A stretch of 58,404 nt of DNA from Clostridia bacterium (GTDB taxonomy: Bacteria > Bacillota > Peptococcia > DRI-13 > UBA5745). The stretch covers positions 1 through 58,404 of the forward strand of contig JAHDPO010000001.1 of assembly GCA_018434325.1 (NCBI GenBank), in the 5' to 3' direction. Below, in pieces: positions 22,993-51,720 of this stretch; position 1 is the stretch's first letter; each line of letters starts with the position of its first letter. The position numbers and the translations under genes were made by a program. The notes under the pieces are model-generated. The model did not search any database. It had not been told where the DNA came from and worked only from the letters and a program-made list of their open reading frames with translations.

Positions 22993-24717
22993 ATGTCACC
23001 TGACTTTTCCCGGCAATTTCTCTTGGCCCTGGCCAATACTTTTTTGCACGGCGTCCTGATCGTCGATCCTTCAGGCGCTATCCTTGTGATCAACCAAGCC
23101 TTTGAGGAAATCCTGCAGGTAAAAGAAAAAGATGTCCTGGGTATGGACATCCAATCGGTGGTGCCTAAATGCCAATTAAAGCGGGTGATGGCCGCCGGCC
23201 TGCCCAGCACCAATAATATTTATAAGATGAACGGCCGCATCTATAAAGCCAATTATTTTCCCCTGAAAATTGAGGAGGCTTTATTGGGCGGCGTGGCGGT
23301 CTTCTATGATATCACCACCACGGAGAAGATCAGCAGCGAATTGACAGCCGTCAATACCTATAAATCCATTCTCGAAACCATCCTGCAAAATGTCACCGAG
23401 GGTATCGTGGTCGTGAATAAGGAAGGCAATATTCTGATGTTTAACGGCGCCTACGCCGACTTCCTGGCCATCTCGCCGGAAAAAGCTCTGGGCAAGCCGA
23501 TTTCTGAGGTTTTTCCCGACAGCCGGGTCACGGAGGTCATGGAAAAAGGCATATCCAATATCAGCATGGTGCAAAAAATCGGCGACCACAATGCCGTCGT
23601 CAAAAGCATGCCCATCAAAATCGACGACGAAGTAGTGGCCGGGGTCAGCAACATCTGGTTTCGGGATTTAAAAGATATGCAGCACCTTTACCGCCATCTG
23701 TCAAGCTTAGAGGACGAGCTGGCTTACTATAAAGAAGAATTGCGCCGCAAGCAGGGCAGCAAATATACGTTGAACCATATCATCGGCAAAAGTTCCGCCA
23801 TCGCCACTTTGAAGCATTGGATTCAGACGGCGGGCCGTTCCCCTTCCACCGTATTGATTCTCGGTGAAAGCGGCACCGGCAAGGAGCTGGTGGCCCATTC
23901 CATCCACGATTCCTCGGGCCGCCGCCATCAGCCCTTCGTGCGCATCAACTGCGCCGCCATCCCCGAAGCCATACTGGAATCGGAGCTTTTTGGCTATGCC
24001 GGCGGCGCTTTTACCGGCTCCCAGAAAGGCGGCAAAATCGGCAAGTTTGAAATGGCCGACAAAGGCACCGTGTTTTTAGATGAAATCGGCGACATGTCCT
24101 TTCATATGCAGGCAAAGCTGCTGCGCTTCCTGCAGGAAAAAGAATTTGAGCGTCTGGGCGAAAACAAAATGCGCCAGGTGGATGTGCGGGTCATTGCCGC
24201 CACCAACCAAAACCTGGCCCAAAAAATCATCGACGGCACCTTCCGGGAGGATTTGTTTTACCGCCTGCAAGTAGTCACCATCGACATGCCGCCTTTGCGG
24301 CAGCATAAGGAAGATATTCCTCTGCTCTTCAGTCATTTTACGGAAAAATACAGCCGGGAGCTGCTTTTGCCGCAGCCGCAGATCACGCCTCAATCCATGG
24401 CACTGCTGGAAGCCTACCACTGGCCCGGCAACGTGCGGCAGCTGGAAAATGCGGCGGAGCGGGCCTGCAACCTCTTGGGCAGCCGGGGGGAAATCACCCC
24501 GGATATGCTGCCCTCCTATCTGCAGCAGCCGGCCTCTGCCGCCGCCATTCCCGGCAGCAATTCCTTTGACCTGTCTGCCAGCAAGCAGGAAGCAGAAAAA
24601 GCCAGCGTTTTGCTGGCTTTGGAAAAAAGCGGCGGCAACCGGACGCAGGCAGCTGCGCTCCTGGGCATCACCCGTACCGCCTTATATCAGAAACTAAAGA
24701 AATATCAGATCAGCTGA
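22993..24717 (+). CDS. Sigma-54-dependent transcriptional activator with two PAS domains
   Basis: 574 residues from the ATG at 22993 with AGGAGG 8 nt upstream. Two PAS domains (about 10-105 and 120-225) and a coiled-coil linker (about 232-255) precede a complete AAA+ domain with Walker A GESGTGKE (near 290), the sigma-54 contact loop GAFTGS (near 338), Walker B FLDEIGDM and the R-finger region LFYRL. The C-terminal Fis-type helix-turn-helix is NRTQAAALLGITRTALYQKL. There is no receiver domain, so it probably senses a small molecule through PAS. The divergent sigma-54 promoters at 27.7-27.9 kb are the nearest likely targets; a third sits before the decarboxylase operon. Confidence 0.93.
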   Translation: MSPDFSRQFLLALANTFLHGVLIVDPSGAILVINQAFEEILQVKEKDVLGMDIQSVVPKCQLKRVMAAGLPSTNNIYKMNGRIYKANYFPLKIEEALLGGVAVFYDITTTEKISSELTAVNTYKSILETILQNVTEGIVVVNKEGNILMFNGAYADFLAISPEKALGKPISEVFPDSRVTEVMEKGISNISMVQKIGDHNAVVKSMPIKIDDEVVAGVSNIWFRDLKDMQHLYRHLSSLEDELAYYKEELRRKQGSKYTLNHIIGKSSAIATLKHWIQTAGRSPSTVLILGESGTGKELVAHSIHDSSGRRHQPFVRINCAAIPEAILESELFGYAGGAFTGSQKGGKIGKFEMADKGTVFLDEIGDMSFHMQAKLLRFLQEKEFERLGENKMRQVDVRVIAATNQNLAQKIIDGTFREDLFYRLQVVTIDMPPLRQHKEDIPLLFSHFTEKYSRELLLPQPQITPQSMALLEAYHWPGNVRQLENAAERACNLLGSRGEITPDMLPSYLQQPASAAAIPGSNSFDLSASKQEAEKASVLLALEKSGGNRTQAAALLGITRTALYQKLKKYQIS

Positions 24718-27728: not shown

Positions 27729-27744
27729 TGCAAAATATATGCCA
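27729..27744 (-). promoter_or_regulatory. Sigma-54 promoter of the IlvD-like/LarA operon
   Basis: Minus strand TGGCATATATTTTGCA: GG and GC are separated by exactly 10 nt, as the -24/-12 consensus requires. Predicted start near 27717, 36 nt before the TTG start codon. Confidence 0.75.
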
Positions 27745-27789
27745 AGGTCTGGTTTTCACAAAACAGGCCTTTTTCTCTCGCTTTTTTTG

Positions 27790-27815
27790 TTAATAAGTTG
27801 ATTATAACTTATTAA
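27790..27815. promoter_or_regulatory. Palindromic candidate activator site between divergent sigma-54 promoters
   Basis: TTAATAAGTT-GATTAT-AACTTATTAA, perfect 10-bp arms. It lies about 60 bp from the minus-strand -24 box and about 120 bp from the plus-strand one, the usual range for an upstream activating sequence. Binding by the activator at 22993-24717 is inferred. Confidence 0.6.
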
Positions 27816-27920
27816 TAAGACGTTTTATACTCAATCGGTCAACGGTGACTTTGCTGCCCGGGATAGGCAGGTGAGAGGATTGGACGGAAAACCCTTGATC
27901 CCGGCTGACGTCTTCGGCTC

Positions 27921-27936
27921 TGGCATGATTTTTGCT
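27921..27936 (+). promoter_or_regulatory. Sigma-54 promoter of the permease gene
   Basis: TGGCATGATTTTTGCT with GG-N10-GC spacing. Predicted start near 27948, 36 nt before the TTG start codon. The rest of this 302-nt gap (27682-27983) holds the opposite promoter and the palindrome only. Confidence 0.78.
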
Positions 27937-29498: not shown

Positions 29499-30485
29499 CT
29501 AGTTGAATCTTGCCAGCATGCCGTCCAGAACCTTATTCAGATCCATGGTTACGGCCACGTCGGATACTTCAAATACCGGCGCATTTTCATCTTTGTTAAC
29601 GCTGATGATCAAGCCGGAATCCTTCATGCCACAGATGTGGTGGGTGGCGCCGGAGATGCCGAAGCCCACATACACCTTGGGCCGGATGGATTTGCCGCTG
29701 GTGCCTACCATCAAGTGCTCGCCGCCGGACCAGCCTTCGTCCACCGCCGGACGGGTGCAGGCGGCAGCGCCGCCAAAGATAGCCGCCAGCTTCACCAGCT
29801 TATCCCAGTTTTCCTTGCTGCCCAAGCCGTAACCGCCGCAAAATACGATATCCGCTTTCTCCAGGGGCACGCCTTCCACTTCCTTCTTCTCAAGGCTGAG
29901 CGCCTTAAGAGGCAGTTCGTTTCGGGGCAGCAGGGACAGATCCATTTTTACTACATTTAACGGCTGAGGCCGGGCCGGGCCCTGAACAAAAATGCCCGGT
30001 TTGACGGAGGCCATCTGCGGCCTGTTGTCAGGACAGAGAATCTCGCCCAGTATCTTGCCGCCGAAAGAAGGTACGTCGGCCACCAGGAGCTTGTCGCTGT
30101 TGATCCGCATATCCACGCAATGGGCGGCCACGCCGGTGGCCAGACCTGCCGCCACCGTGGGCCCCAGCTGGGAGCCGATGGCCGTAGCGCCAAAGAGGAA
30201 GATCTCCGGCTGCTCTTTTTTGGCCAGCTCCACAATCAGCGGGGCATAAAGCATGGGATTGTACAAACCCAGGGCGGGATCATCAGCCAAATAGACCACT
30301 TCCGCCCCCTGCTCTGCCAATTGGCCGCAGAAGGGTTCTACGCCGTCGCCCAAAAGCACGGCTCCTACTTCTGTTTCTCCGCCCAACTCCGCCGCCAGCT
30401 CACCGGCCTTGGTCAGCAATTCAAAGACCACAGGATCCAATCCGCATTTAACTTGTTCGGCAAAAACCCAAATTTTCTTTTTCAT
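29499..30485 (-). CDS. etfA: Electron transfer flavoprotein alpha subunit
   Basis: 328 residues from the ATG at 30485, which overlaps the etfB stop. The C-terminal FAD site is typical: MVGTSGKSIRPKVYVGFGISGATHH in parts (about 250-275) and SVNKDENAPVFEVSDV near 290. EtfAB carries electrons from the acyl-CoA dehydrogenase encoded just upstream, or takes part in flavin-based bifurcation; the sequence alone does not decide. It is the last gene of the decarboxylase operon. Confidence 0.92.
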   Translation of the reverse strand: MKKKIWVFAEQVKCGLDPVVFELLTKAGELAAELGGETEVGAVLLGDGVEPFCGQLAEQGAEVVYLADDPALGLYNPMLYAPLIVELAKKEQPEIFLFGATAIGSQLGPTVAAGLATGVAAHCVDMRINSDKLLVADVPSFGGKILGEILCPDNRPQMASVKPGIFVQGPARPQPLNVVKMDLSLLPRNELPLKALSLEKKEVEGVPLEKADIVFCGGYGLGSKENWDKLVKLAAIFGGAAACTRPAVDEGWSGGEHLMVGTSGKSIRPKVYVGFGISGATHHICGMKDSGLIISVNKDENAPVFEVSDVAVTMDLNKVLDGMLARFN

Positions 30486-31321
30486 TTGCCGCCCCCCCAT
30501 TCACAGCTGCCATCCAGATCAATGCTGATACCGCCGGCCCGCAAACGCTGCAGCAGTTCTTCTACAATCTGTTCCGGGTCGCCTTTCAGCACTTCTCCTT
30601 TGCGCTTTAAATCGGGAGTGAAAACACCGCCGGCTTTGGTCGGAGAACCGTCAAGACCCAAGTGGCTGTCTTCGACCAAAAGGTCGTTTTTACCCCAAGT
30701 GCTGATGGGCTTATTTTTGGCCTTAATGATACCCATAGCGGAAATGAACCGGGGCTTATTGATTTCTCTGGCTACGGCCAAGAGGCAAGGCGTTTTGATT
30801 TCCCATTCCATAGCGCCGTTTTCGATCTTGGTTTTAACCCGCAGACGCTTTTCTTCCGGCGCCTCCATGGCAAAGACATTCCAGAGATGGGGCACGCCCA
30901 GCCACTCGCCCAATTGGGAGGATACCTGGGCCGTAGCTCCGTCGGCGCTTTCGGCGCCGCAAAATACGATATCAAAGGCGTCCAGCTTCTCAATGCCCTT
31001 GGCCAGCGTATAAGAGGTAGCCAAAGTATCGGCGCCGCCAAAGGCCCGGTCGGAAAGCAGTATGCCCTCGTCAGCTCCCATGGCCAAGGCCTCCCGCAGA
31101 TTCTCGGTGGCATTGGGAGGAGCCATCGTGACTACCGTGACTTTACCGCCGTAGGTGGTCTTCAGCTGTAACGCTGCTTCGATAGCGTTTTTATCCACAG
31201 GATTGATGATGGTGGGAATTCCTTCCCGGGTGATCCGCTTCGTGACAGGGTCGATGCTGACCTTGTCGTAATAGGCCGGATCAGGCACGGGCTTAATGCA
31301 TACAACGATGTTTAATGCCAT
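30482..31321 (-). CDS. etfB: Electron transfer flavoprotein beta subunit
   Basis: 279 residues. Opening LNIVVCIKPVPDPAYYDKVSIDP is typical (in two parts), with the nucleotide-binding block FCGAESADGATAQVSSQLGEWL near 120-142. Slightly longer than mammalian EtfB, as in anaerobic Bacillota. Pairs with EtfA; 17 nt after the dehydrogenase stop. Confidence 0.92.
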   Translation of the reverse strand: MALNIVVCIKPVPDPAYYDKVSIDPVTKRITREGIPTIINPVDKNAIEAALQLKTTYGGKVTVVTMAPPNATENLREALAMGADEGILLSDRAFGGADTLATSYTLAKGIEKLDAFDIVFCGAESADGATAQVSSQLGEWLGVPHLWNVFAMEAPEEKRLRVKTKIENGAMEWEIKTPCLLAVAREINKPRFISAMGIIKAKNKPISTWGKNDLLVEDSHLGLDGSPTKAGGVFTPDLKRKGEVLKGDPEQIVEELLQRLRAGGISIDLDGSCEWGGGK

Positions 31322-31338: not shown

Positions 31339-32493
31339 CTAGGCTTTGAAGTCTGCCAGAGTGCTGCCGGCAATGATCAGCTGCTGAATGTGAGAGGTGC
31401 CGCCGGAAGGAATGGAAGCCAAAGCATCCCGGAGGAAACGGCCTACGGGGTACTCATTGATTACGCCATAGCCGCCCATGAGGTCCATGCAGCGCTTGGA
31501 AGAGCGGACAGCTGCTTCAGAAGAGAAATACTTGGCCAGGGCAAAATCCGTAGTAGCCGGAATTTTGGCGTCTTTCTTGGCGAAGGCCGCATAGGTCAAA
31601 TACTTGGCAGCTTCATAATCCGTACGGATGTTGGCCACTTCGAATTGGATAGCCTGCAGCTTGGCAATGGGCTTACCATAGAGGATGCGCTCGTTGGCAA
31701 ACTTGACGGCTTCTTCCACACAGCCCCGCAGAATACCGACACAAATGGCGCTCATGCCGGCCCGGCCGACTTCGCCGATGGCTGCCATGCCGATTTTGAC
31801 GCCGGCTCCTACTTTACCCAGCACATTGGCTTCCGGCACCTTGACGTCGTCCATGATGGTGTCGCCGGTGATGGAGCCTCTCAGGCCCAGCTTGTTTTCG
31901 TGGCGTCCCGTGTTAAAGCCGGGGGTGCCTTTTTCGATGATGAAAGTGGTAATCATGTTGCGGCCTTTTTCATCCTGGCCGTTAACGGCCGTCACTACAT
32001 TGACGTCGGCCTGGTGATTGGTGATGAAGCATTTGCGGCCGTTGATGATCCAGAAGCCGTCCTCCAGCTTGGCCGTGGCCTTCTGTCCCGTGTAATCGGA
32101 GCCGCCGCCGGGCTCGGTGGTGGCCAGGCCGGCCAGCTTCTTGCCGGCGCAGCAGTCCGGCAGATATTTTTGCTTCTGTTCTTCACTGCCGGCGTCCAGG
32201 ATAGCGGACATGCCCAGGTGATGGGTCATTATGGCAATGGCCAGACCAGCGGAATGACGGGCGATTTCTTCCAGGCAAATAGCCCTTTCAATGTAGCCCA
32301 TACCGGCGCCGCCGTACTCTTCCGGTACGAAAATACCGCAAACACCCAGCTCACCCAGAGCCGGCAGCAATTCGGCAGGAAAATGGTCCTCTTCATCCCA
32401 TTTGGCGGCATGAGGGGCGATCTCCGTTTCAACAAACTCTCTGACGGCTTTTCTGAGCATTTCCTGCTCTTCGGTAAATTGGAAAAATTGCAT
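31339..32493 (-). CDS. Short-chain acyl-CoA dehydrogenase
   Basis: 384 residues from the ATG at 32493, 8 nt after AAGGAG. Family blocks: GGAGMGYIERAICLEEIAR near 60-80, TEPGGGSDYTGQKATA near 126-141 for FAD and substrate, and MDLMGGYGVINEYPVGRFLRDA near 345-365 where the Glu of NEYP is the catalytic base of butyryl-CoA-type enzymes. It interconverts a short acyl-CoA and its 2-enoyl-CoA with EtfAB as partner. Beside a methylmalonyl- or glutaconyl-type decarboxylase, propionyl, butyryl or glutaryl-CoA are the substrates to consider. Confidence 0.9.
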   Translation of the reverse strand: MQFFQFTEEQEMLRKAVREFVETEIAPHAAKWDEEDHFPAELLPALGELGVCGIFVPEEYGGAGMGYIERAICLEEIARHSAGLAIAIMTHHLGMSAILDAGSEEQKQKYLPDCCAGKKLAGLATTEPGGGSDYTGQKATAKLEDGFWIINGRKCFITNHQADVNVVTAVNGQDEKGRNMITTFIIEKGTPGFNTGRHENKLGLRGSITGDTIMDDVKVPEANVLGKVGAGVKIGMAAIGEVGRAGMSAICVGILRGCVEEAVKFANERILYGKPIAKLQAIQFEVANIRTDYEAAKYLTYAAFAKKDAKIPATTDFALAKYFSSEAAVRSSKRCMDLMGGYGVINEYPVGRFLRDALASIPSGGTSHIQQLIIAGSTLADFKA

Positions 32494-32565
32494 GTAAATC
32501 ACTCCTTAATTTATTTTTAATTTTATTGTACAACCAATTTATGTAAAAACAAAACCCTTTTGGTT

Positions 32566-33813
32566 TTATTTAAACAAATTGAGTAATACGCCGGCGGCTA
32601 CCGCCGAACCGATAACCCCAGCCACGTTGGGCCCCATGGCGTGCATCAGCAGGAAATTCTGCGGATCCTCTTTTTGGCCTACCACCTGGGATACCCGGGC
32701 CGCCATTGGTACTGCCGATACGCCGGCCGAACCGATCAAGGGGTTAATCTTTTTGCCGCTGAGGTAATACATGACTACGCCCAGCAGGACGCCGCCGGCC
32801 GTGCCAACCCCAAAGGCAACCAGGCCCATGACGATAATACTGATGGTTTTAGGGCTTAAAAAGGTTTCTGCATTAGCTGTCGCCCCCACCGTAACCCCAA
32901 GAAAAATAGTGATGATATTGATCATGGCATTTTGAGCCGTTTCGCTGAGGCGGCCTACTACGCCGGACTCCCGGAACAAGTTGCCCAGCATCAGCATACC
33001 CACCAGCGGCGCTGCGTCAGGCAGCAGCAAGATTACGGCAATGGTGACGACGATGGGGAAAATGATCTTTTCTTTTTGGCTCACTACTCTCAGCTGCCCC
33101 ATGCGGACCAACCGCATTTCCTTCGTCGTTAAAAGGCGCATAATCGGCGGCTGGATGATGGGCACCAAAGCCATGTAAGAGTAAGCAGCCACAGCGATAG
33201 GCCCCAGCAGATGAGGCGCCAGCTTTGAGGTCAAATAAATAGCCGTGGGACCGTCGGCGCCGCCGATGATGGCCGTGGAAGCCGCCTCCCTGACATCAAA
33301 GCCCAGATATAAAGCCACGATGAAGACGAAAAATATTCCTAACTGAGCCGCCGCACCCAATAAAAAAGTTTTGGGATTAGCAATCAGGGGCCCGAAATCC
33401 GTCATGCAGCCGATGCCCAGAAAAATCAAAGGCGGATAGATGCCCAGCTTAACCCCTTGATAAAGGTAATAAAGCAAGCCGCCGGGGGCCAGCTTAGAGG
33501 CATACAAGACGTATTCGCCGCCCTCTTTAATCTTCCAAAGATGCTCGCCTGAGGCCAGCTCCGCTGCATCAGCTATCGGTCTGAGGCTTTCTATTCCCGG
33601 CGACATCAGGCCCCCATCCAAAGGCCCGGGCAGATTAATCAACAGCATGCCAAAAGCAATCGGCAAGAGCAATAAGGGTTCAAACTTCTTAACGATGGCC
33701 AGATAGATCAGAATCAGGGATATAACGATCATAATAATCTGTTTATACGTAATCATCATGATTCCCGTACTCATCCACAGGCCTTTTAAGGCTTCTACTA
33801 CATTGATATCCAT
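32566..33813 (-). CDS. mmdB: Na+-pumping decarboxylase beta subunit (membrane)
   Basis: 415 residues and about ten hydrophobic segments. Contains the family hallmark GGADGPTAIYLTSKLAPHLLG (near 185-205, in parts), where the Asp and nearby polar residues form the sodium path, plus AGVIGSAVAAGVLLNLF at the C-terminus. This subunit decarboxylates carboxybiotin and exports Na+. Equivalent to OadB, MmdB or GcdB; assignment to the methylmalonyl type follows the alpha subunit. A thioesterase gene separates it from the biotin carrier. Confidence 0.9.
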   Translation of the reverse strand: MDINVVEALKGLWMSTGIMMITYKQIIMIVISLILIYLAIVKKFEPLLLLPIAFGMLLINLPGPLDGGLMSPGIESLRPIADAAELASGEHLWKIKEGGEYVLYASKLAPGGLLYYLYQGVKLGIYPPLIFLGIGCMTDFGPLIANPKTFLLGAAAQLGIFFVFIVALYLGFDVREAASTAIIGGADGPTAIYLTSKLAPHLLGPIAVAAYSYMALVPIIQPPIMRLLTTKEMRLVRMGQLRVVSQKEKIIFPIVVTIAVILLLPDAAPLVGMLMLGNLFRESGVVGRLSETAQNAMINIITIFLGVTVGATANAETFLSPKTISIIVMGLVAFGVGTAGGVLLGVVMYYLSGKKINPLIGSAGVSAVPMAARVSQVVGQKEDPQNFLLMHAMGPNVAGVIGSAVAAGVLLNLFK

Positions 33814-33869: not shown

Positions 33870-34286
33870 TTATAGCAAGGCGGCCTTCTGCCTGATCTGC
33901 TCTTCCTTATCGTCGGCGGCCGGGTCCAATTTAAGCCCGTGAGGCAGCTTTTTGCCCTCGGCGTCCACATGAATAAACGTAATGAAGCCTTCAATGGGCT
34001 GAATATCCCGGTTAACTACCGTAATCTCCCCATGGACGACAAGGCGGGTGTTGCCCAGAGCTGCAATTTGTGACTTGATGGTAATGATCTCACCCGGATG
34101 CACAGGATTGCGAAAAACTAAGCCATGAATATTCAGACAAACAATGGACGAAGAATCGCCTACTTCCGTAGCCGCCGCAATAAAAGCAGTCTCTACAAAC
34201 CATTCTGCAGCCCTGCCGGCAAATAAGGTGCCATGGTGATTCAGATCTCCCTGCTTCACCAGGCGATTTGTCACATGGGTCTTCAT
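33870..34286 (-). CDS. Hotdog-fold acyl-CoA thioesterase (YciA type)
   Basis: 138 residues. The motif NHHGTLFAGRAAEWFVETAFIAA (near 15-37, in two parts) is that of YciA/BACH acyl-CoA hydrolases, with a later VHPGEIITIKSQI block. It hydrolyses acyl-CoA to acid and CoA. Its start overlaps the stop of the biotin-carrier gene (ATGA), so it is integral to the decarboxylase operon, perhaps relieving CoA trapping or releasing the product acid. Confidence 0.85.
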   Translation of the reverse strand: MKTHVTNRLVKQGDLNHHGTLFAGRAAEWFVETAFIAAATEVGDSSSIVCLNIHGLVFRNPVHPGEIITIKSQIAALGNTRLVVHGEITVVNRDIQPIEGFITFIHVDAEGKKLPHGLKLDPAADDKEEQIRQKAALL

Positions 34287-34696
34287 CCGATGACCACCAA
34301 AACATCGCCGGGGTTCACGGCGGCGCCGGCCGACACTCGGATATCCTTGACCTCTCCGGCAGCATTGCTGAAAATCTCATTGTCCATTTTCATGGCCTCC
34401 AGAATCAATACCAAATCGCCGGCATTGACTTTATCGCCCACCTTAACGGCAACGCTCTGGATTTTGCCGGGCATCGGGGAGGTAATGGCTTCCCCTCCGG
34501 TAACGGCGGCCGCCGGGGCCGGGGCGACAGGGGCTGCCGCAGCAGCAGGAGCTGCCACAATAGGTGCAGCAGGAGCGAGGGCCGCAGGAGAGGGCGCAGC
34601 TTTTTTCACTTGGCCAATTGCGGGCCGGCTGCCGCCGATTTCTTCAACCTCCACCTCATAAGCCTGACCGTTTACTTTTATGTTGAATAAACGCAT
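34283..34696 (-). CDS. mmdC: Biotin carboxyl carrier subunit of Na+-pumping decarboxylase
   Basis: 137 residues from the ATG at 34696; an in-frame ATG four codons earlier abuts the AAAGG site. N-terminal part MRLFNIKVNGQAYEVEVEEIG, a linker of about 40 residues almost purely Ala and Pro, and a C-terminal biotinyl domain with the biotinylation lysine in EAMKMDN. The flexible linker lets biotin move between the alpha carboxyltransferase and the beta membrane subunit. Confidence 0.9.
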   Translation of the reverse strand: MRLFNIKVNGQAYEVEVEEIGGSRPAIGQVKKAAPSPAALAPAAPIVAAPAAAAAPVAPAPAAAVTGGEAITSPMPGKIQSVAVKVGDKVNAGDLVLILEAMKMDNEIFSNAAGEVKDIRVSAGAAVNPGDVLVVIG

Positions 34697-34735
34697 ATTA
34701 CTACTCATCCTTTCGTTATCAAATAATCAAGGTTA

Positions 34736-35179
34736 CTATACTGTCAGTCTTTTTGCCATCAGGGCTTCCCGGCCTTTTTGGGCCCAGGCTTTACCGGCGA
34801 AGGCCCCTTGCTTTTCGATCATGCCGCATGGCCTTTTCTCCTCTTCCAGCATTGCATATACCGCCGCCGTAATTACGGCCAGCACTTGAGGATCAATAGC
34901 CTCTGCCTGATCATTGCTGCCAGCCTGCTCTGCCTCAGTCCGGATCGGCTGGCCGGCGGCGGCCGGGGCAGCTTGAGCAGCTTGAGCAGTTTGAGCAACG
35001 GCTAAAGCCGGGGCCGGCTTTTCCTTTGTTCCAAAAGCGATGCCCATAAGCTTAATAATACCGATCAACATAACCAAGGCTACAAAAACCACAGCCATGC
35101 CGACAAAAGCTGTTTTGATTCCATACCAACCGGTGCCTAAAGCACCCAGATGATTAATTACGACTAAATCAGGATTCAT
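34736..35179 (-). CDS. mmdD: Decarboxylase delta/gamma (OadG-like) membrane anchor subunit
   Basis: 147 residues. One membrane helix near residues 20-45 (FVGMAVVFVALVMLIGIIKL), then an Ala/Pro/Gln-rich linker and a C-terminal segment (VLAVITAAVYAMLEEEK) that in this family binds the alpha subunit. OadG/MmdD proteins hold the carboxyltransferase at the membrane. Located between alpha and biotin-carrier genes as in Veillonella-type mmd clusters. Confidence 0.85.
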   Translation of the reverse strand: MNPDLVVINHLGALGTGWYGIKTAFVGMAVVFVALVMLIGIIKLMGIAFGTKEKPAPALAVAQTAQAAQAAPAAAGQPIRTEAEQAGSNDQAEAIDPQVLAVITAAVYAMLEEEKRPCGMIEKQGAFAGKAWAQKGREALMAKRLTV

Positions 35180-35218: not shown

Positions 35219-36769
35219 TCACATCGGGATATTGCCGTGCTTTTTGGCAGGGCGGCTTTCCCGTTTGGTCGACAGCATCCGCAAAGCATTGATCAGCACC
35301 GGCCGGGTCTCCGCCGGCTCAATGACCAGATCGGCCAGACCGCTTTCTGCCGCCACATAAGGAGTGGCAAAGCGTTCTTTATACTCGTCGATCAGCCTCT
35401 GGCGGGTGGCTTCCGGGTCGTCAGCAGCATCGATTTCCTTGCGGAAAATAATATTGGCTGCACCCTCGGCGCCCATAACGGCGATTTCCGCCGTAGGCCA
35501 GGCGATGACCTGATCAGCCCCCAAATCCTTGGAGCACATGGCCAAATAAGCGCCGCCGTAAGCTTTTCTCGTCACCAAAGTGATTTTCGGCACGGTAGCT
35601 TCGGAATAGGCATAAAGCATCTTGGCGCCGTGGCGGATAATACCGCCGTATTCCTGGTTGACACCGGGCAAAAAGCCGGGTACATCCACCAGATTCAGCA
35701 CAGGAATATTGAAGGCGTCGCAGAATCGAATAAAGCGGGCTGCTTTATCGGAAGCGTTAATATCCAGGCAGCCGGCCATCACCTTTGGCTGGTTGCCGAT
35801 AATGCCTACAGATTGTCCGTCAAAACGGGCAAAGCAGGTAATGATATTGCCGGCATAGTATTCCTGTACCTCAAAGAAATCACCATTGTCCGCAATAGCC
35901 GCGATAATCTTCTTCATATCGTAAGCCGCATTGGGATTATCGGGGATAACACTGTTTAACAGCTCCTCCTGGCGCTGAGGATCGTCCTGGCATTCATAAG
36001 CCGCCGCCTCTTCCAGATTATTGGAGGGCAGAAAAGACAGCAGCCGCCGGATCTGATCAAAGCACTCGGTTTCCGTATCCGCCGCAAAATGGGCTACACC
36101 GCTGATTTTATTGTGGGTCATAGCGCCGCCCAAGGCTTCCGCCGACACATCTTCGCCGGTAACCGTCTTAATGACCTGCGGGCCCGTAATAAACATTTTG
36201 CTGATATCCTTCACCATAAAAACGAAGTCCGTTAAAGCGGGTGAATAAACGGCTCCGCCGGCGCTGGGTCCCAGAATTACAGAAATCTGAGGCACCACGC
36301 CGGAAGCTATGGTATTGGCATAGAAGATTTTGCCGTAGCCTGCCAAAGCATTGATAGCTTCCTGAATACGGGCGCCGCCGGAGTCACTGATACCGATGAT
36401 GGGCGCTCCCATTTTCATGGCCATATCCATTACTTTACAGATCTTATTGGCATGCATTTCTCCCAGGGAACCGCCCAGCACCGTAAAGTCCTGCGCATAA
36501 ATAAAAATCAGGCGTCCGTCGATAGTACCATAGCCGGTGATCACTCCTTCTCCGGGAGCCTCTTTTCCGGCCATGTCAAAATTACTGCAGTGATGGGCCA
36601 CGAATTTGTCCAGCTCCGTAAAGCTGCCTTCGTCCAGCAAGGCCAATACCCGTTCCCGGGCCGTTAGCTTACCCAGGCTATGCTGCTTATCGATAGCTGC
36701 CTGGCCGCCGCCGGCCTCCACTTTGCGGCTGAGTTCCCTCAGCTTTTCCATCTTTTTCATTGTTGTCAT
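35219..36769 (-). CDS. mmdA: Methylmalonyl-CoA decarboxylase alpha subunit (carboxyltransferase)
   Basis: 516 residues from the ATG at 36769, 9 nt after AAGGAG. N-terminal LGKLTARERVLALLDEGSF, the acyl-CoA oxyanion block SDSGGARIQEAI, a second carboxybiotin oxyanion region RKAYGGAYLAMCSKDLGAD and the C-terminal KKHGNIPM are typical of MmdA and PccB. It moves CO2 from malonyl- or methylmalonyl-CoA to biotin. Length and C-terminus fit the methylmalonyl type and not the longer glutaconyl-CoA decarboxylase. First gene of an eight-gene operon with a sigma-54 promoter. Confidence 0.9.
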   Translation of the reverse strand: MTTMKKMEKLRELSRKVEAGGGQAAIDKQHSLGKLTARERVLALLDEGSFTELDKFVAHHCSNFDMAGKEAPGEGVITGYGTIDGRLIFIYAQDFTVLGGSLGEMHANKICKVMDMAMKMGAPIIGISDSGGARIQEAINALAGYGKIFYANTIASGVVPQISVILGPSAGGAVYSPALTDFVFMVKDISKMFITGPQVIKTVTGEDVSAEALGGAMTHNKISGVAHFAADTETECFDQIRRLLSFLPSNNLEEAAAYECQDDPQRQEELLNSVIPDNPNAAYDMKKIIAAIADNGDFFEVQEYYAGNIITCFARFDGQSVGIIGNQPKVMAGCLDINASDKAARFIRFCDAFNIPVLNLVDVPGFLPGVNQEYGGIIRHGAKMLYAYSEATVPKITLVTRKAYGGAYLAMCSKDLGADQVIAWPTAEIAVMGAEGAANIIFRKEIDAADDPEATRQRLIDEYKERFATPYVAAESGLADLVIEPAETRPVLINALRMLSTKRESRPAKKHGNIPM

Positions 36770-36817
36770 TGACAGTAGCTCCTTACTTCCACAGTGATTT
36801 TTACTGATTTTTTTACT

Positions 36818-36835
36818 TTGTGCCATTTGACACAA
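36818..36835 (-). promoter_or_regulatory. Rex/Crp-like palindrome at the decarboxylase operon start
   Basis: TTGTGTCAAATGGCACAA on the minus strand: TTGTG-N8-CACAA, the arrangement of Rex (NADH/NAD+) and Crp/Fnr sites. It covers the predicted start site of the sigma-54 promoter, so a repressor role is likely. Confidence 0.5.
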
Positions 36836-36843
36836 ATATAATA

Positions 36844-36859
36844 AGCAAGTTTCGTGCCA
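36844..36859 (-). promoter_or_regulatory. Sigma-54 promoter of the decarboxylase/Etf operon
   Basis: Minus strand TGGCACGAAACTTGCT: an essentially perfect -24/-12 element with GG-N10-GC. Predicted start near 36833, about 65 nt before the mmdA start codon. Confidence 0.85.
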
Positions 36860-36973
36860 AGAAAATTCAACGCCGGTTTTCCGGCCAAAAGGTTAGACAA
36901 ACCTCATCGCACCGTCATTTCTTTGAAAAACTGCCTTTTTGCCTTACCGGCAAAAAAGGGCATATCGTCCACT

Positions 36974-37007
36974 TGTAAAGTTATGTTTACGTTAAGTAAA
37001 GTTTACA
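36974..37007. promoter_or_regulatory. Candidate enhancer site for the decarboxylase operon
   Basis: A 34-bp region bounded by TGTAAA and TTTACA with internal GTAAA-C-TTTAC and GTAAA-N6-TTTAC pairs (minus strand). It lies about 115-150 bp upstream of the -24 box, where sigma-54 activators bind. The rest of the 433-nt gap 36770-37202 holds the promoter and the pta terminator, with no gene seen. Confidence 0.45.
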
Positions 37008-37083
37008 CTGTTTGCGTTTCTCTTCACAAAACAGTCTGGCCGGCATAGGCTAGAGTAGGCGGCTTGATTTGCGACGGATCTTA

Positions 37084-37141
37084 AAAAAAAGCTGCCGGCA
37101 AAGGATAGGATTCCCTTTGAACGACAGCTTTCATATCAGAA
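37084..37141 (-). terminator. Intrinsic terminator of pta
   Basis: On the minus strand AAAGCTG ... CAAAGG and CCTTTG ... CAGCTTT form a long stem with small internal mismatches, followed by a run of T. Confidence 0.8.
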
Positions 37142-37202: not shown

Positions 37203-38195
37203 TTATTGCTGGCAGCAAACCATAGCTACGGTATTGACCACATCCTCGATGCTGCAGCCCCTGGACAAGTCGTTTACCGGCTTGGCCATACCTTGGAGTA
37301 CGGGACCTACGGCTTCCACACCGCCAAAACGCTGAGCCGTCTTGTAAGCGATGTTGCCGGCTTCCAGACTGGGGAAGACCAGAACATTGGCTTGTCCGGC
37401 CACATTGCTGCCGGGAGCCTTGGATTTGCCTACGGAAGGCACCACGGCGGCGTCCAGCTGCATCTCACCGTCCAGCTCCAGCTCGGGATAACGCTCGTGG
37501 GCGATTTTGACAGCCTCTACAACCTTGTCCACAGCCTCATGGCTGGCGCTTCCTTTAGTGGAGAAGGATAGCATAGCAATCTTGGGCTGGGCGATACCGG
37601 CAATTTCCTTAGCGGTCTGAGCGGAGCAATAAGCAATTTCAGCCATCTGCTCGGCAGTGACGGTAGGATTGACGGCGCAGTCGGCAAAAACGCTGATACC
37701 ATTGTCGCCCAGATCTTTGTTATTAGAAATCATCAGGAAAGCGCCGGAAACAGAAGATATGCCGGGCTTCGTCTTGATGATCTGCAAGGCGGGGCGCAAA
37801 ACATTGCCCGTGGAATTCTCAGCGCCGGCTACCATGCCGTGGCACTGGCCTGTATAAACCATCATCACGCCGAAATACAGAGGATCCTTCATGGTGGCCT
37901 CGGCTTTCTCCGGCGTCATGCCTTTTTTCTCTCTCATTTTAAAATAGCTGTCGGCAAAGCTCTGGAAATCCGCGGCCTTAACGGGATCGACAATCGCCAC
38001 ACCCGTCAGGTCAGCGCCGACTTCAGCTGCCACTTTGCTGATGGCCTCCGGATCGCCCAATAAAGTAATCTTGGCAATCCCTTCTTTCGTAATAATTTCT
38101 GCCGCCTTTACGGTTCTCTTCTCCGTACCCTCGGGCAGAACGATATGTTTTTGGTCCGCCTTGGCTTTTTCCCTGATTTTTGTAATCAAATCCAT
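37203..38195 (-). CDS. pta: Phosphate acetyltransferase
   Basis: 330 residues, the normal length of the short Pta. Motifs: VLPEGTEKRTVKAA near 20, GMVAGAENSTGNVLRPALQI near 125-145 and KAPGSNVAGQANVLVFPSLEAGN near 260-283 (in parts). It interconverts acetyl-CoA and acetyl phosphate for ATP formation with acetate kinase (gene not in window). Monocistronic with its own terminator; AGGAGG precedes ATG. Related phosphotransbutyrylases are less likely given the motifs. Confidence 0.9.
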   Translation of the reverse strand: MDLITKIREKAKADQKHIVLPEGTEKRTVKAAEIITKEGIAKITLLGDPEAISKVAAEVGADLTGVAIVDPVKAADFQSFADSYFKMREKKGMTPEKAEATMKDPLYFGVMMVYTGQCHGMVAGAENSTGNVLRPALQIIKTKPGISSVSGAFLMISNNKDLGDNGISVFADCAVNPTVTAEQMAEIAYCSAQTAKEIAGIAQPKIAMLSFSTKGSASHEAVDKVVEAVKIAHERYPELELDGEMQLDAAVVPSVGKSKAPGSNVAGQANVLVFPSLEAGNIAYKTAQRFGGVEAVGPVLQGMAKPVNDLSRGCSIEDVVNTVAMVCCQQ

Positions 38196-48950: not shown

Positions 48951-49871
48951 TCAGCTTAAACGAATAATCATCATCGATGCGCCAAGGCTGCCGCCCAAAA
49001 GGGTAGCCGCTCCGACGATCAATGGAGCATACATCTGCAGCACTATGGTGGCCCCCGCTCCCAGGCTGACTTCTATCTCATTATAGAACTGGGATAAGGC
49101 CAAAGCCGGCGGAATCGTAGATTGAAGAATGTTGCCGCCGTTGATCACCAGACGGGTGCCCAAGATAACGCTGGCAGTGGTATTGACATGATAAGAAACA
49201 CGGTAATAGCCGGGGGTATTAACCGTAAACGTGGTATTGCCGTTAGTGAGCGTGATATCGGGAGACAGTAGCTGAACGCTGGGAAAGGAGAGATTGGTGC
49301 CGGCCACCAATACGGTGATCAAGCCGCCGGCTGTATTGGCGGCAAAGCCTGCTGTAACTGAAGGCGGTGGTGTAGGTGCGGCGGCGGCGGCAGCGCCGGT
49401 AGGACCGCTGGCGCCGGCGGGACCGGTGGAGCCGGTGGGGCCGGCAGGCCCTTCAGGGCCGACGGGGCCCGGCAGCCCTTCCGGACCGGTAGCCCCAGCT
49501 TCTCCTATGGGGCCCGCAGGTCCCGTGGGGCCTGTATCTGTGCCGGTGGGACCGGTGGAGCCGGTGGGGCCCGTTGCTCCCAAAAATACAGGTGCTCTTA
49601 AAGCTTGAGTCAACTTGCCATTTAATACAATTTGATTTTCCAGTACGGTGCCGAGCATATTGCCGACGCCATTATTGATATCCGTAACATCGGCAATGGT
49701 AGAGCCGCCGATCAACCCGGGAAGCGTGCCTATGGCATACTGGATTTTTTCCCCTTCCGTATTGATAATATGGCTGAGGGCCAACTCCTCCGAGGCAATG
49801 GAGGAAATAACCTGGTTAATTGCACTTTGTCTGTCCAGATCAGGAGTTAAGGGAAATTGCGGTTGTGACAT
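48951..49871 (-). CDS. Collagen-like surface protein (BclA-like), copy 1
   Basis: 306 residues. Residues 1-95 form an N-terminal domain shared by three neighbours ([20 protein letters not shown] near 23-42). Residues 98-159 are Gly-X-Y repeats, mostly GPT, GPA and GPE, with one four-residue break near 110. After an Ala/Pro linker the C-terminal 130 residues look like the beta-rich trimer-forming domain of BclA-type exosporium glycoproteins ([19 protein letters not shown]) and end in MMIIRLS. Thr in GPT is a likely glycosylation site. Spore-surface location is inferred from family and the sporulation gene nearby. Confidence 0.85.
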
Positions 49872-49883
49872 AGTCTTTCCTCC

Positions 49884-50789
<906 letters not shown>

Positions 50790-50835
50790 AACTAGCACCT
50801 CTCAATTTTTTATTTTATAAGGTCTAGGATCTTTA

Positions 50836-51720
50836 CTACAGCTTAGTAAAGACTATCCGACCTCGGCGCACACGTATTTCCCTTTGGGCGCATAGGAAAA
50901 GAGATATGTAAGGGGGGCAGCAGGAACAGGGCATCCGGGCAGTTGTTTGTTTATATGAAGTACTTGGGCGTCCGCAAATATCCGGGTAGAGTCTCGTCAT
51001 AACAGGCTGCAAGCCCTTACAATGAGCGGCCAGCTTTGCTTCACCGCAAAAATATGTTGAGGGGTCGGTATCCAGGTGAAACTCGACCATATATGAACCT
51101 GCCGGGGGCACCTGTATTTGGGTGCAGTCAGCTGACGGTGAGGCTGAATTACCGGTTTTGCCGCATTTTCTCCACTGCAGCGGCTCATTACTGCGATAAG
51201 CCTTAGGTACTACCTCAAAGCTGATGGACTCGCATGAGCAGGGGGGCTGGGGAGGCCAAGGCGGCTTCGGCGGCCTGGGTGGTCTGGGTGGTGGGCAGGG
51301 CGGCTCCGGCGGCCAAGGCGGCTTCGGCGGTCTGGGCGGCCAGGGCGGCTCCGGCGGACAAGGCGGCTTCGGTGGCCAGGGTGGCTTCGGCGGTCTGGGT
51401 GGCCAGGGCGGTTCCGGCGGCCTGGGTGGACGGGGCAAGTGTTCCAGAACCTTTTCCATTTTATTTTTCAGGATCAGCTGATTTTGCATCACCATTTCCA
51501 GCAAGCCTGCCACACTTTTGTTCACTGCCAGAACATCGTCGATATCGGCAGGACATCTGCCGCAACTGGTCTGACCTAAGGCGTACTGGATCTTTTCACC
51601 TTCTGCATTAATAATGTGACTAAAAGCCACTTCTTCCAAAGCAATGGATGACAATATCATTGTTAGAGCCTGCTCCTGTGTTAAATCAGGATCTAACTTG
51701 GGAAATTCAGGCATTGACAC
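50836..51720 (-). CDS. Proline/tryptophan-repeat paralogue of the collagen-like proteins
   Basis: 294 residues, GTG start 9 nt after AGGAGG. The N-terminal domain is that of the two collagen-like neighbours ([20 protein letters not shown] near 24-43), but the middle (about 96-161) is an array of PPX triplets in which X is Arg, Lys, Glu, Trp or Cys (for example PPWPPRPPKPPWPP). This should form an extended polyproline rod instead of a collagen helix. The C-terminal 130 residues differ from the paralogues and hold about ten cysteines, suggesting disulfide crosslinking. First gene of the operon. Function unknown; a spore coat or exosporium component is likely. Confidence 0.8.
   Translation of the reverse strand: MSMPEFPKLDPDLTQEQALTMILSSIALEEVAFSHIINAEGEKIQYALGQTSCGRCPADIDDVLAVNKSVAGLLEMVMQNQLILKNKMEKVLEHLPRPPRPPEPPWPPRPPKPPWPPKPPCPPEPPWPPRPPKPPWPPEPPCPPPRPPRPPKPPWPPQPPCSCESISFEVVPKAYRSNEPLQWRKCGKTGNSASPSADCTQIQVPPAGSYMVEFHLDTDPSTYFCGEAKLAAHCKGLQPVMTRLYPDICGRPSTSYKQTTARMPCSCCPPYISLFLCAQREIRVRRGRIVFTKL

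Follow-up and report, generated by a model that had tools for sequence, protein, structure and literature searches.

How is transcription controlled in an operon that sets the subunits of a probable Na+-pumping decarboxylase beside a thioesterase and an Etf-linked acyl-CoA reductase? An earlier note on this DNA had proposed a near-ideal sigma-54 promoter, enhancer-like repeats upstream of it and a Rex-like site over the transcription start. We examined these elements in the window, the whole stretch of 58,404 nucleotides that was analyzed; it is one complete contig, C51, and belongs to a genome of 3.83 Mb (G000). We compared them with a congeneric genome (G004), two genomes of a sister genus in the same family (G007 and G008) and a further genome of that family (G006). 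At 3.8 Mb, G000 represents an anaerobe rich in sigma-54 regulators: it encodes one RpoN and has 28 matches to the Sigma54_activat domain, 24 of them strong (E < 1e-39; loci L002 to L025), with the GAFTGA motif in 19 of the 28 loci. Elsewhere in the window, positions 48951-51720 encode three neighbouring proteins, two with collagen-like GPTGPTG repeats and one with a long PPxPP repeat, which as judged by eye have a common N-terminal domain.

The operon and its promoter

The operon lies on the minus strand in the order mmdA-OadG/MmdD-biotin carrier-thioesterase-mmdB-acd-etfB-etfA. Its genes and the elements around its start are as follows.

37203-38195, minus strand: pta, upstream of the mmd operon and in the same direction
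37083..37130, minus strand: intrinsic-terminator-like hairpin and T run that follow pta, read from the sequence by inspection
36844..36859, minus strand: predicted sigma-54 promoter (-24/-12) TGGCACGAAACTTGCT, from a motif scan and conservation
36833, minus strand: predicted transcription start (+1), placed by spacing 12 nt past the C of the -12 GC
36779..36784, minus strand: Shine-Dalgarno sequence AAGGAG
35219..36769, minus strand: mmdA-type carboxyltransferase/decarboxylase alpha subunit (TIGR01117 mmdA, 898.7 bits, under the curated cut-off of 998.8)
34736..35179, minus strand: OadG/MmdD-type small membrane subunit (PF04277)
34283..34708, minus strand: biotin carrier subunit of the MmdC type (NCBIfam biotin carrier families, below their cut-offs)
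33870..34286, minus strand: hotdog acyl-CoA thioesterase-like protein (PF03061, 4HBT)
32566..33813, minus strand: Na+-pumping decarboxylase beta subunit, MmdB (TIGR01109, 515 bits, cut-off 190.6; PF03977)
31339..32502, minus strand: acyl-CoA dehydrogenase/reductase (best NCBIfam match acryloyl-CoA reductase AcrC, below cut-off; short-chain acyl-CoA dehydrogenases in the PDB)
30482..31321, minus strand: EtfB (NCBIfam; nearest solved relative CarD of caffeyl-CoA reductase-Etf)
29499..30500, minus strand: EtfA (NCBIfam; nearest solved relative CarE)

The alpha, beta, biotin carrier and small membrane subunits make a complete Na+-translocating decarboxylase set, and the operon probably encodes such a pump. 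Among solved proteins the mmdA-type protein is closest to propionyl-CoA carboxylase beta and transcarboxylase 12S, and because it misses the TIGR01117 cut-off, the decarboxylase substrate is not certain. Decarboxylase and Etf-linked reductase could plausibly both lead to propionyl-CoA and then propionate. For comparison we assembled 110 mmdA-type loci, 80 named and 30 further ones. Neither EtfB nor the thioesterase was found near mmdA in any of the 80 named loci (52 of which have at least 15 kb of DNA; the shorter ones count less), and an acyl-CoA dehydrogenase, at 35-40% identity, was found near mmdA in five. The mmdA annotation therefore needs care, as acyl-CoA dehydrogenase, Etf and thioesterase form a set here that is not seen beside the other mmdA genes compared.

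Since the terminator-like hairpin ends pta, positions 36770-37080 can be taken as the operon's own promoter region. Within it, TGGCACGAAACTTGCT matches TGGCACGN4TTGCW without mismatch and is the sole exact match in the window, with GG and GC 12 bp apart within TGGCAC-N5-TTGC. Scored with a sigma-54 weight matrix, TGGCACGAAACTTGCT ranks highest of all contig positions (19.8 bits; runner-up 17.5). At up to two mismatches the pattern is not enriched in the window (7 sites versus a shuffle mean of 10.65), and TGGCACN5TTGCW occurs six times in the 3.83-Mb genome versus once for a reversed control pattern. The promoter proposed earlier thus proved to be the best box of the contig, on the strand then given, and a start at 36833, as predicted from spacing, puts GG at -25/-24 and GC at -13/-12 just as had been claimed.

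Upstream regions could be placed by tblastn-anchored starts for 107 of the 110 loci, the other three having no upstream DNA. A box of at least 14 bits within 350 bp upstream of the mmdA-type gene was present in 4 of the 107, namely G000, G004, G007 and G008, which belong to a single family; no shuffled 350-bp sequence reached 14 bits (0/1100). All four family genomes that carry the mmd-acd-etfBA operon retain the box; the copies of G000 and G004 agree at 15 of 16 positions. In G006, whose mmdA is 67% identical, an upstream scan found no such sigma-54 box or enhancer wiring. On this sequence comparison, the sigma-54 and enhancer wiring of the mmd operon is real and restricted to one family, and TGGCACGAAACTTGCT is almost certainly the operon's sigma-54 promoter.

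A probable tandem-dyad enhancer and its candidate activator

Upstream of the promoter lies an element conserved in all four genomes, and a gene for an enhancer-binding protein (EBP) lies in the same window.

36974..37007, minus strand: predicted enhancer (UAS), two abutting 16-bp GTAAAC-N4-GTTTAC dyads, from a four-genome alignment
22993-24717, plus strand: proposed activator, a PrdR-like EBP with PAS-PAS-sigma54 AAA+-Fis HTH architecture and a GAFTGS loop, from domain and family profiles and orthologues

The GTAAA/TTTAC palindromes reported 115-150 bp upstream are present, at 115-148 bp, and are better described as a single 34-bp element with two dyads, which with their outer bases are of the TGT-N12-ACA type. 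The two-dyad match covers 23 of 26 positions, whereas the best in 1.17 Mb of shuffled sequence (the window mononucleotide-shuffled 20 times) was 18. The element aligns across the four genomes over 34 bp without gaps and with 20 invariant columns. Against G004 it is 31/34 identical, while its flanks have diverged to 53% (63/118 columns of the spacer to the box) and 27% (72/271 columns of the region up to pta). It stands 115 bp from the box in G000 and 115, 117, 132 and 136 bp across the four genomes, the 132-136 bp spacings being those of the sister genus; these distances fall inside the 100-250 bp upstream range recorded for most Clostridiales EBP sites (PMC6615313).

Across nine family genomes, zero-mismatch sites for the enhancer pattern were the four mmd promoters, one each, and two more in a G008 cluster. 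The pattern was built from these six copies and fits them perfectly by design; what counts is that no seventh site was found in the nine genomes. A covariance-style model (R1) gave good E-values at the four mmd sites only; as in three genomes it scored 150 of 312-611 candidates, this search was not exhaustive, and it missed the two G008 copies that were later found by script and pattern. Taken together with its position, this conservation makes the 34-bp element very probably the enhancer of the TGGCACGAAACTTGCT promoter. The two further G008 copies (L158:1464-1714 and L158:8145-9579) precede methionine gamma-lyase-like and oligopeptide-transporter-like genes; one lies behind an mmdB-like gene that is itself preceded by a sigma-54 box, the other behind what appears by eye to be a degraded mmdB remnant. 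Between enhancer and promoter, window positions 36930-36965 also hold an inverted repeat, CCTTTTTTGCC/GGCAAAAAGG, which is not conserved in G004.

The product of 22993-24717 is the sole EBP on the contig (sigma-54 AAA+ domain, 2.8e-69). Its orthologues in G004 and G008 are 94% and 72% identical; all three carry GAFTGS, not GAFTGA, with the Thr kept, and are nearly identical in the DNA-recognition region GNRTQAA.LLGITRTALYQK. In G008 the orthologue immediately follows etfA and is convergent with it. A larA-ilvD pair and one or more DctM-like transporter genes lie between operon and activator in G000 and G004, and the gene is 12 kb from the mmd promoter in G000. The best NCBIfam match of the protein is PrdR (NF041552), the proline reductase activator, at 497.8 bits and under the curated cut-off of 795; PrdR has other target genes. 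Enhancers of the TGT-N10-12-ACA form have been described for regulators of the PrdR and MdeR groups (PMC6615313).

The intervening genes have divergent sigma-54 promoters of their own (window 27729-27936), for larA-ilvD at 27744 on the minus strand and for the DctM-like transporter at 27921 on the plus strand. These surround a dyad at 27794, TAAGTT-N6-AACTTA, that is unlike the mmd enhancer, and a related dyad, CAAGTT-N6-AACTTG, precedes an ilvD-type operon adjoining another EBP gene (L023, contig C13); the two sets of genes probably form one regulon. We rejected the linked EBP as regulator of the larA-ilvD and transporter promoters since they carry this other dyad, common to the L023 operon. 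The two enhancer types can thus be divided between the linked EBP and L023, which leaves the linked EBP as the best candidate for the mmd operon. We consider it the likely mmd activator, one that would plausibly sense substrate through its two PAS domains.

Could another regulator bind the 34-bp element? Its dyad fits TGTAAA-N6-TTTACA, the TyrR box, and from this likeness we had first preferred a TyrR-type (HTH_50) EBP such as L019, whose HTH_50 match is above cut-off; HTH_50 counts as such do not discriminate, all four genomes having several weak matches. L023, a paralogue 43% identical to L019, adjoins an operon with AAGTT-N6-AACTT dyads, not GTAAAC, which speaks against the TyrR-type reading. 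An IclR-type protein encoded at 2034-2840 is the other candidate, and one resembling it (names compared by eye) is encoded between the G008 enhancer copies. Linkage favours the PAS-PAS EBP in G000, G004 and G008, and we regard either substitute as improbable. With the box and element conserved, RpoN and EBPs present in the genome and a conserved EBP linked to the operon, sigma-54 control with an enhancer is well supported, as well as sequence evidence allows.

A Rex-like palindrome at the predicted start site

The claimed Rex-like site over the start was found, and its assignment to Rex is less firm than that of the promoter.

36818..36835, minus strand: Rex-like operator TTGTGTCAAATGGCACAA, positions -2 to +16 relative to the predicted start, from a pattern scan and identity in G004

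TTGTGTCAAATGGCACAA is the sole exact TTGTG-N8-CACAA in the window and one of four in G000 (control, one), or about one per Mb; the chance of finding such a site no more than 50 bp from any one promoter is about 1 in 10,000. Exact counts in the other genomes, with controls in parentheses, were 7 (0) in G004, 1 (1) in G006, 0 (0) in G007 and 0 (1) in G008. Among the 107 mmdA-type loci an exact site occurs upstream in two, G000 and G004, and in none of the other 105. Like known Rex operators, TTGTGTCAAATGGCACAA is an 18-bp dyad with TTGTG...CACAA ends that lies over a promoter; unlike them, it has TC/GG in place of the inner AA/TT and overlaps the +1 of a sigma-54 promoter (PMC3441419). Against the general consensus TTGTGAAN4TTCACAA (PMC3441419), its ends agree and 10 of 14 positions match overall. 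In the comparison with related operons that the earlier note had proposed, promoter box and enhancer are kept in four family genomes; of the three other genomes with the operon only G004 keeps the palindrome before it. The palindrome is absent from the mmd upstream DNA of G007 and G008, although the Rex DNA-binding domain has five matches in either genome. In G004 it is identical at 18 of 18 positions; this carries little weight, since the leader that follows is also 92% identical (44/48), and we dropped the conservation as proof of Rex.

G000 has two rex genes above curated cut-offs. Only two of its TTGTG-N8-CACAA sites recur in G004 by sequence and flanking genes, TTGTGTCAAATGGCACAA and TTGTGTCAATATTCACAA, which have the half-site TTGTGTCA in common. 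TTGTGTCAATATTCACAA precedes nuoE-nuoF-[FeFe] hydrogenase A6 genes in both genomes. This operon for an NADH-dependent [FeFe] hydrogenase (A6), whose Rex-type site is conserved in two congeneric genomes (L220:11452-15545; L038; L163), is a natural Rex target.

Two other explanations of the palindrome deserve weight. TGTG-N8-CACA is also the core of CRP-type sites, and G000 encodes several HTH_Crp_2 (CRP/FNR-type) proteins, so the promoter and enhancer might be real while the +1 palindrome binds a CRP/FNR-family protein or nothing, without redox repression by Rex. The genome-wide number of exact sites, rare as they are, is near chance (4 versus 1 for the control), and the palindrome is not conserved outside the genus; both points favour this reading. 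It has to account for the fact that both sites recurring in G004 precede natural Rex targets, the hydrogenase and the mmd operon, and have a half-site in common, and we think it unlikely on balance. The palindrome might otherwise act as a stem-loop at the mRNA 5' end that protects the transcript and be no operator at all: a stem of 5 bp would form from a start at 36833 and of 7 bp from 36835, and one of the positions at which the DNA dyad is not complementary becomes a U-G pair in RNA. Yet the leader folds only modestly better than shuffled sequence, with z-scores of -1.5 and -1.8 for the window and -2.5 for G004, a start at 36833 would leave the outer TT/AA pairs out of the transcript, and identity in G004 leaves no compensatory change, which makes a purely RNA-level role very improbable. 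For binding of Rex to TTGTGTCAAATGGCACAA the odds seem to us slightly favourable. The proposed repression by NADH state is accordingly plausible, given two rex genes, and not established, given a site confined to one genus, a weak consensus match and the presence of CRP/FNR-type proteins. G000 also contains a CRP-type helix-turn-helix frame with one in-frame TGA (L233; G000:C1:37566-37751).

A model of dual control and its precedents

In the model that we favour, mmdADC-thioesterase-mmdB-acd-etfBA would be transcribed from one sigma-54 promoter, with RNA polymerase-sigma54 poised at 36859..36844. An oligomer of the PAS-PAS-AAA+-Fis activator (22993-24717) would sit on the tandem dyad (37007..36974) and, by DNA looping over ~115 bp, open the promoter once its PAS domains sense a branch substrate. 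Rex on -2 to +16 would block the start at low NADH/NAD+ and release it as NADH rises, and the operon would be on only with substrate present and NADH to dispose of. We put the probability of the whole, sigma-54 promoter, tandem-dyad enhancer, linked EBP and Rex layer, at roughly 0.6. In its favour, enhancer, box, palindrome and leader have been kept relative to G004 while spacer and upstream DNA diverged, box and enhancer are also kept in the sister genus, and the activator orthologue adjoins etfA in G008. Against it stand the palindrome's partial consensus match and its absence from G007 and G008 despite their Rex-type proteins; the CRP/FNR-type proteins; the activator's GAFTGS loop, its distance from the promoter in G000 and its missed PrdR cut-off; and the two extra G008 enhancer copies (b and c), downstream of which a search at 100-140 bp found no convincing sigma-54 box. 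That the operon is on only with substrate and surplus NADH has, in our estimate, just under an even chance. More tentatively, the redox-gated sigma-54 promoter could act as an AND gate, with the EBP reporting substrate and Rex on the poised start reporting NADH surplus, and the operon could be an undescribed propionate-forming energy module. Such a gated, family-specific operon possibly links a Na+-pumping decarboxylase and a thioesterase with an acyl-CoA reductase that works through Etf and is perhaps electron-bifurcating.

Control of this kind has precedents: regulation by sigma-54 has been published for hadAIBC-acdB-etfBA and crt-bcd-etf (PMC6615313). In the LeuR system of C. difficile, acdB-etfBA likewise stands behind a predicted sigma-54 promoter and EBP enhancer, and sigma-54 binding was demonstrated there by EMSA (Nie et al. 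2019, PMC6615313). That system differs in serving leucine reduction, in lacking a Na+-pumping decarboxylase and in belonging to another enhancer motif group, and the main text of the paper makes no mention of Rex. The crt-bcd-etf operon resembles ours in its sigma-54 promoter, TGT-N10-12-ACA type enhancer and bcd-etf genes, but leads from acetyl-CoA to butyryl-CoA without a decarboxylase (PMC6615313). A precedent for dual sigma-54/Rex control is adhA1/adhA2 of C. beijerinckii, under AdhR-SigL (sigma-54/EBP) control and in the Rex regulon; these genes encode alcohol dehydrogenases, however, and the effect of inactivating rex was no more than modest (PMC7017808). The layout had been thought new among methylmalonyl-CoA decarboxylases. 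This holds for the loci compared, where it occurs in 4 of 107 and in one family, whereas other fermentation operons have it already (PMC6615313, PMC7017808). Our full-text search returned no paper on sigma-54 with methylmalonyl-CoA decarboxylase, and our literature search none on Rex with Negativicutes and sigma-54, with subscription papers possible in both cases. The new part is the target operon and the Rex-like site on a sigma-54 start.

These data define a promoter where control by substrate, through a sigma-54 activator, and probably control by NADH, through Rex, would converge on one start; the operon behind it would conserve the energy of decarboxylation in a Na+ gradient. If the model is true, the activator gene of the mmd operon can be named, and the control by sigma-54 and enhancer that acd-etf fermentation operons have would reach Na+-pumping decarboxylases, in one family only.
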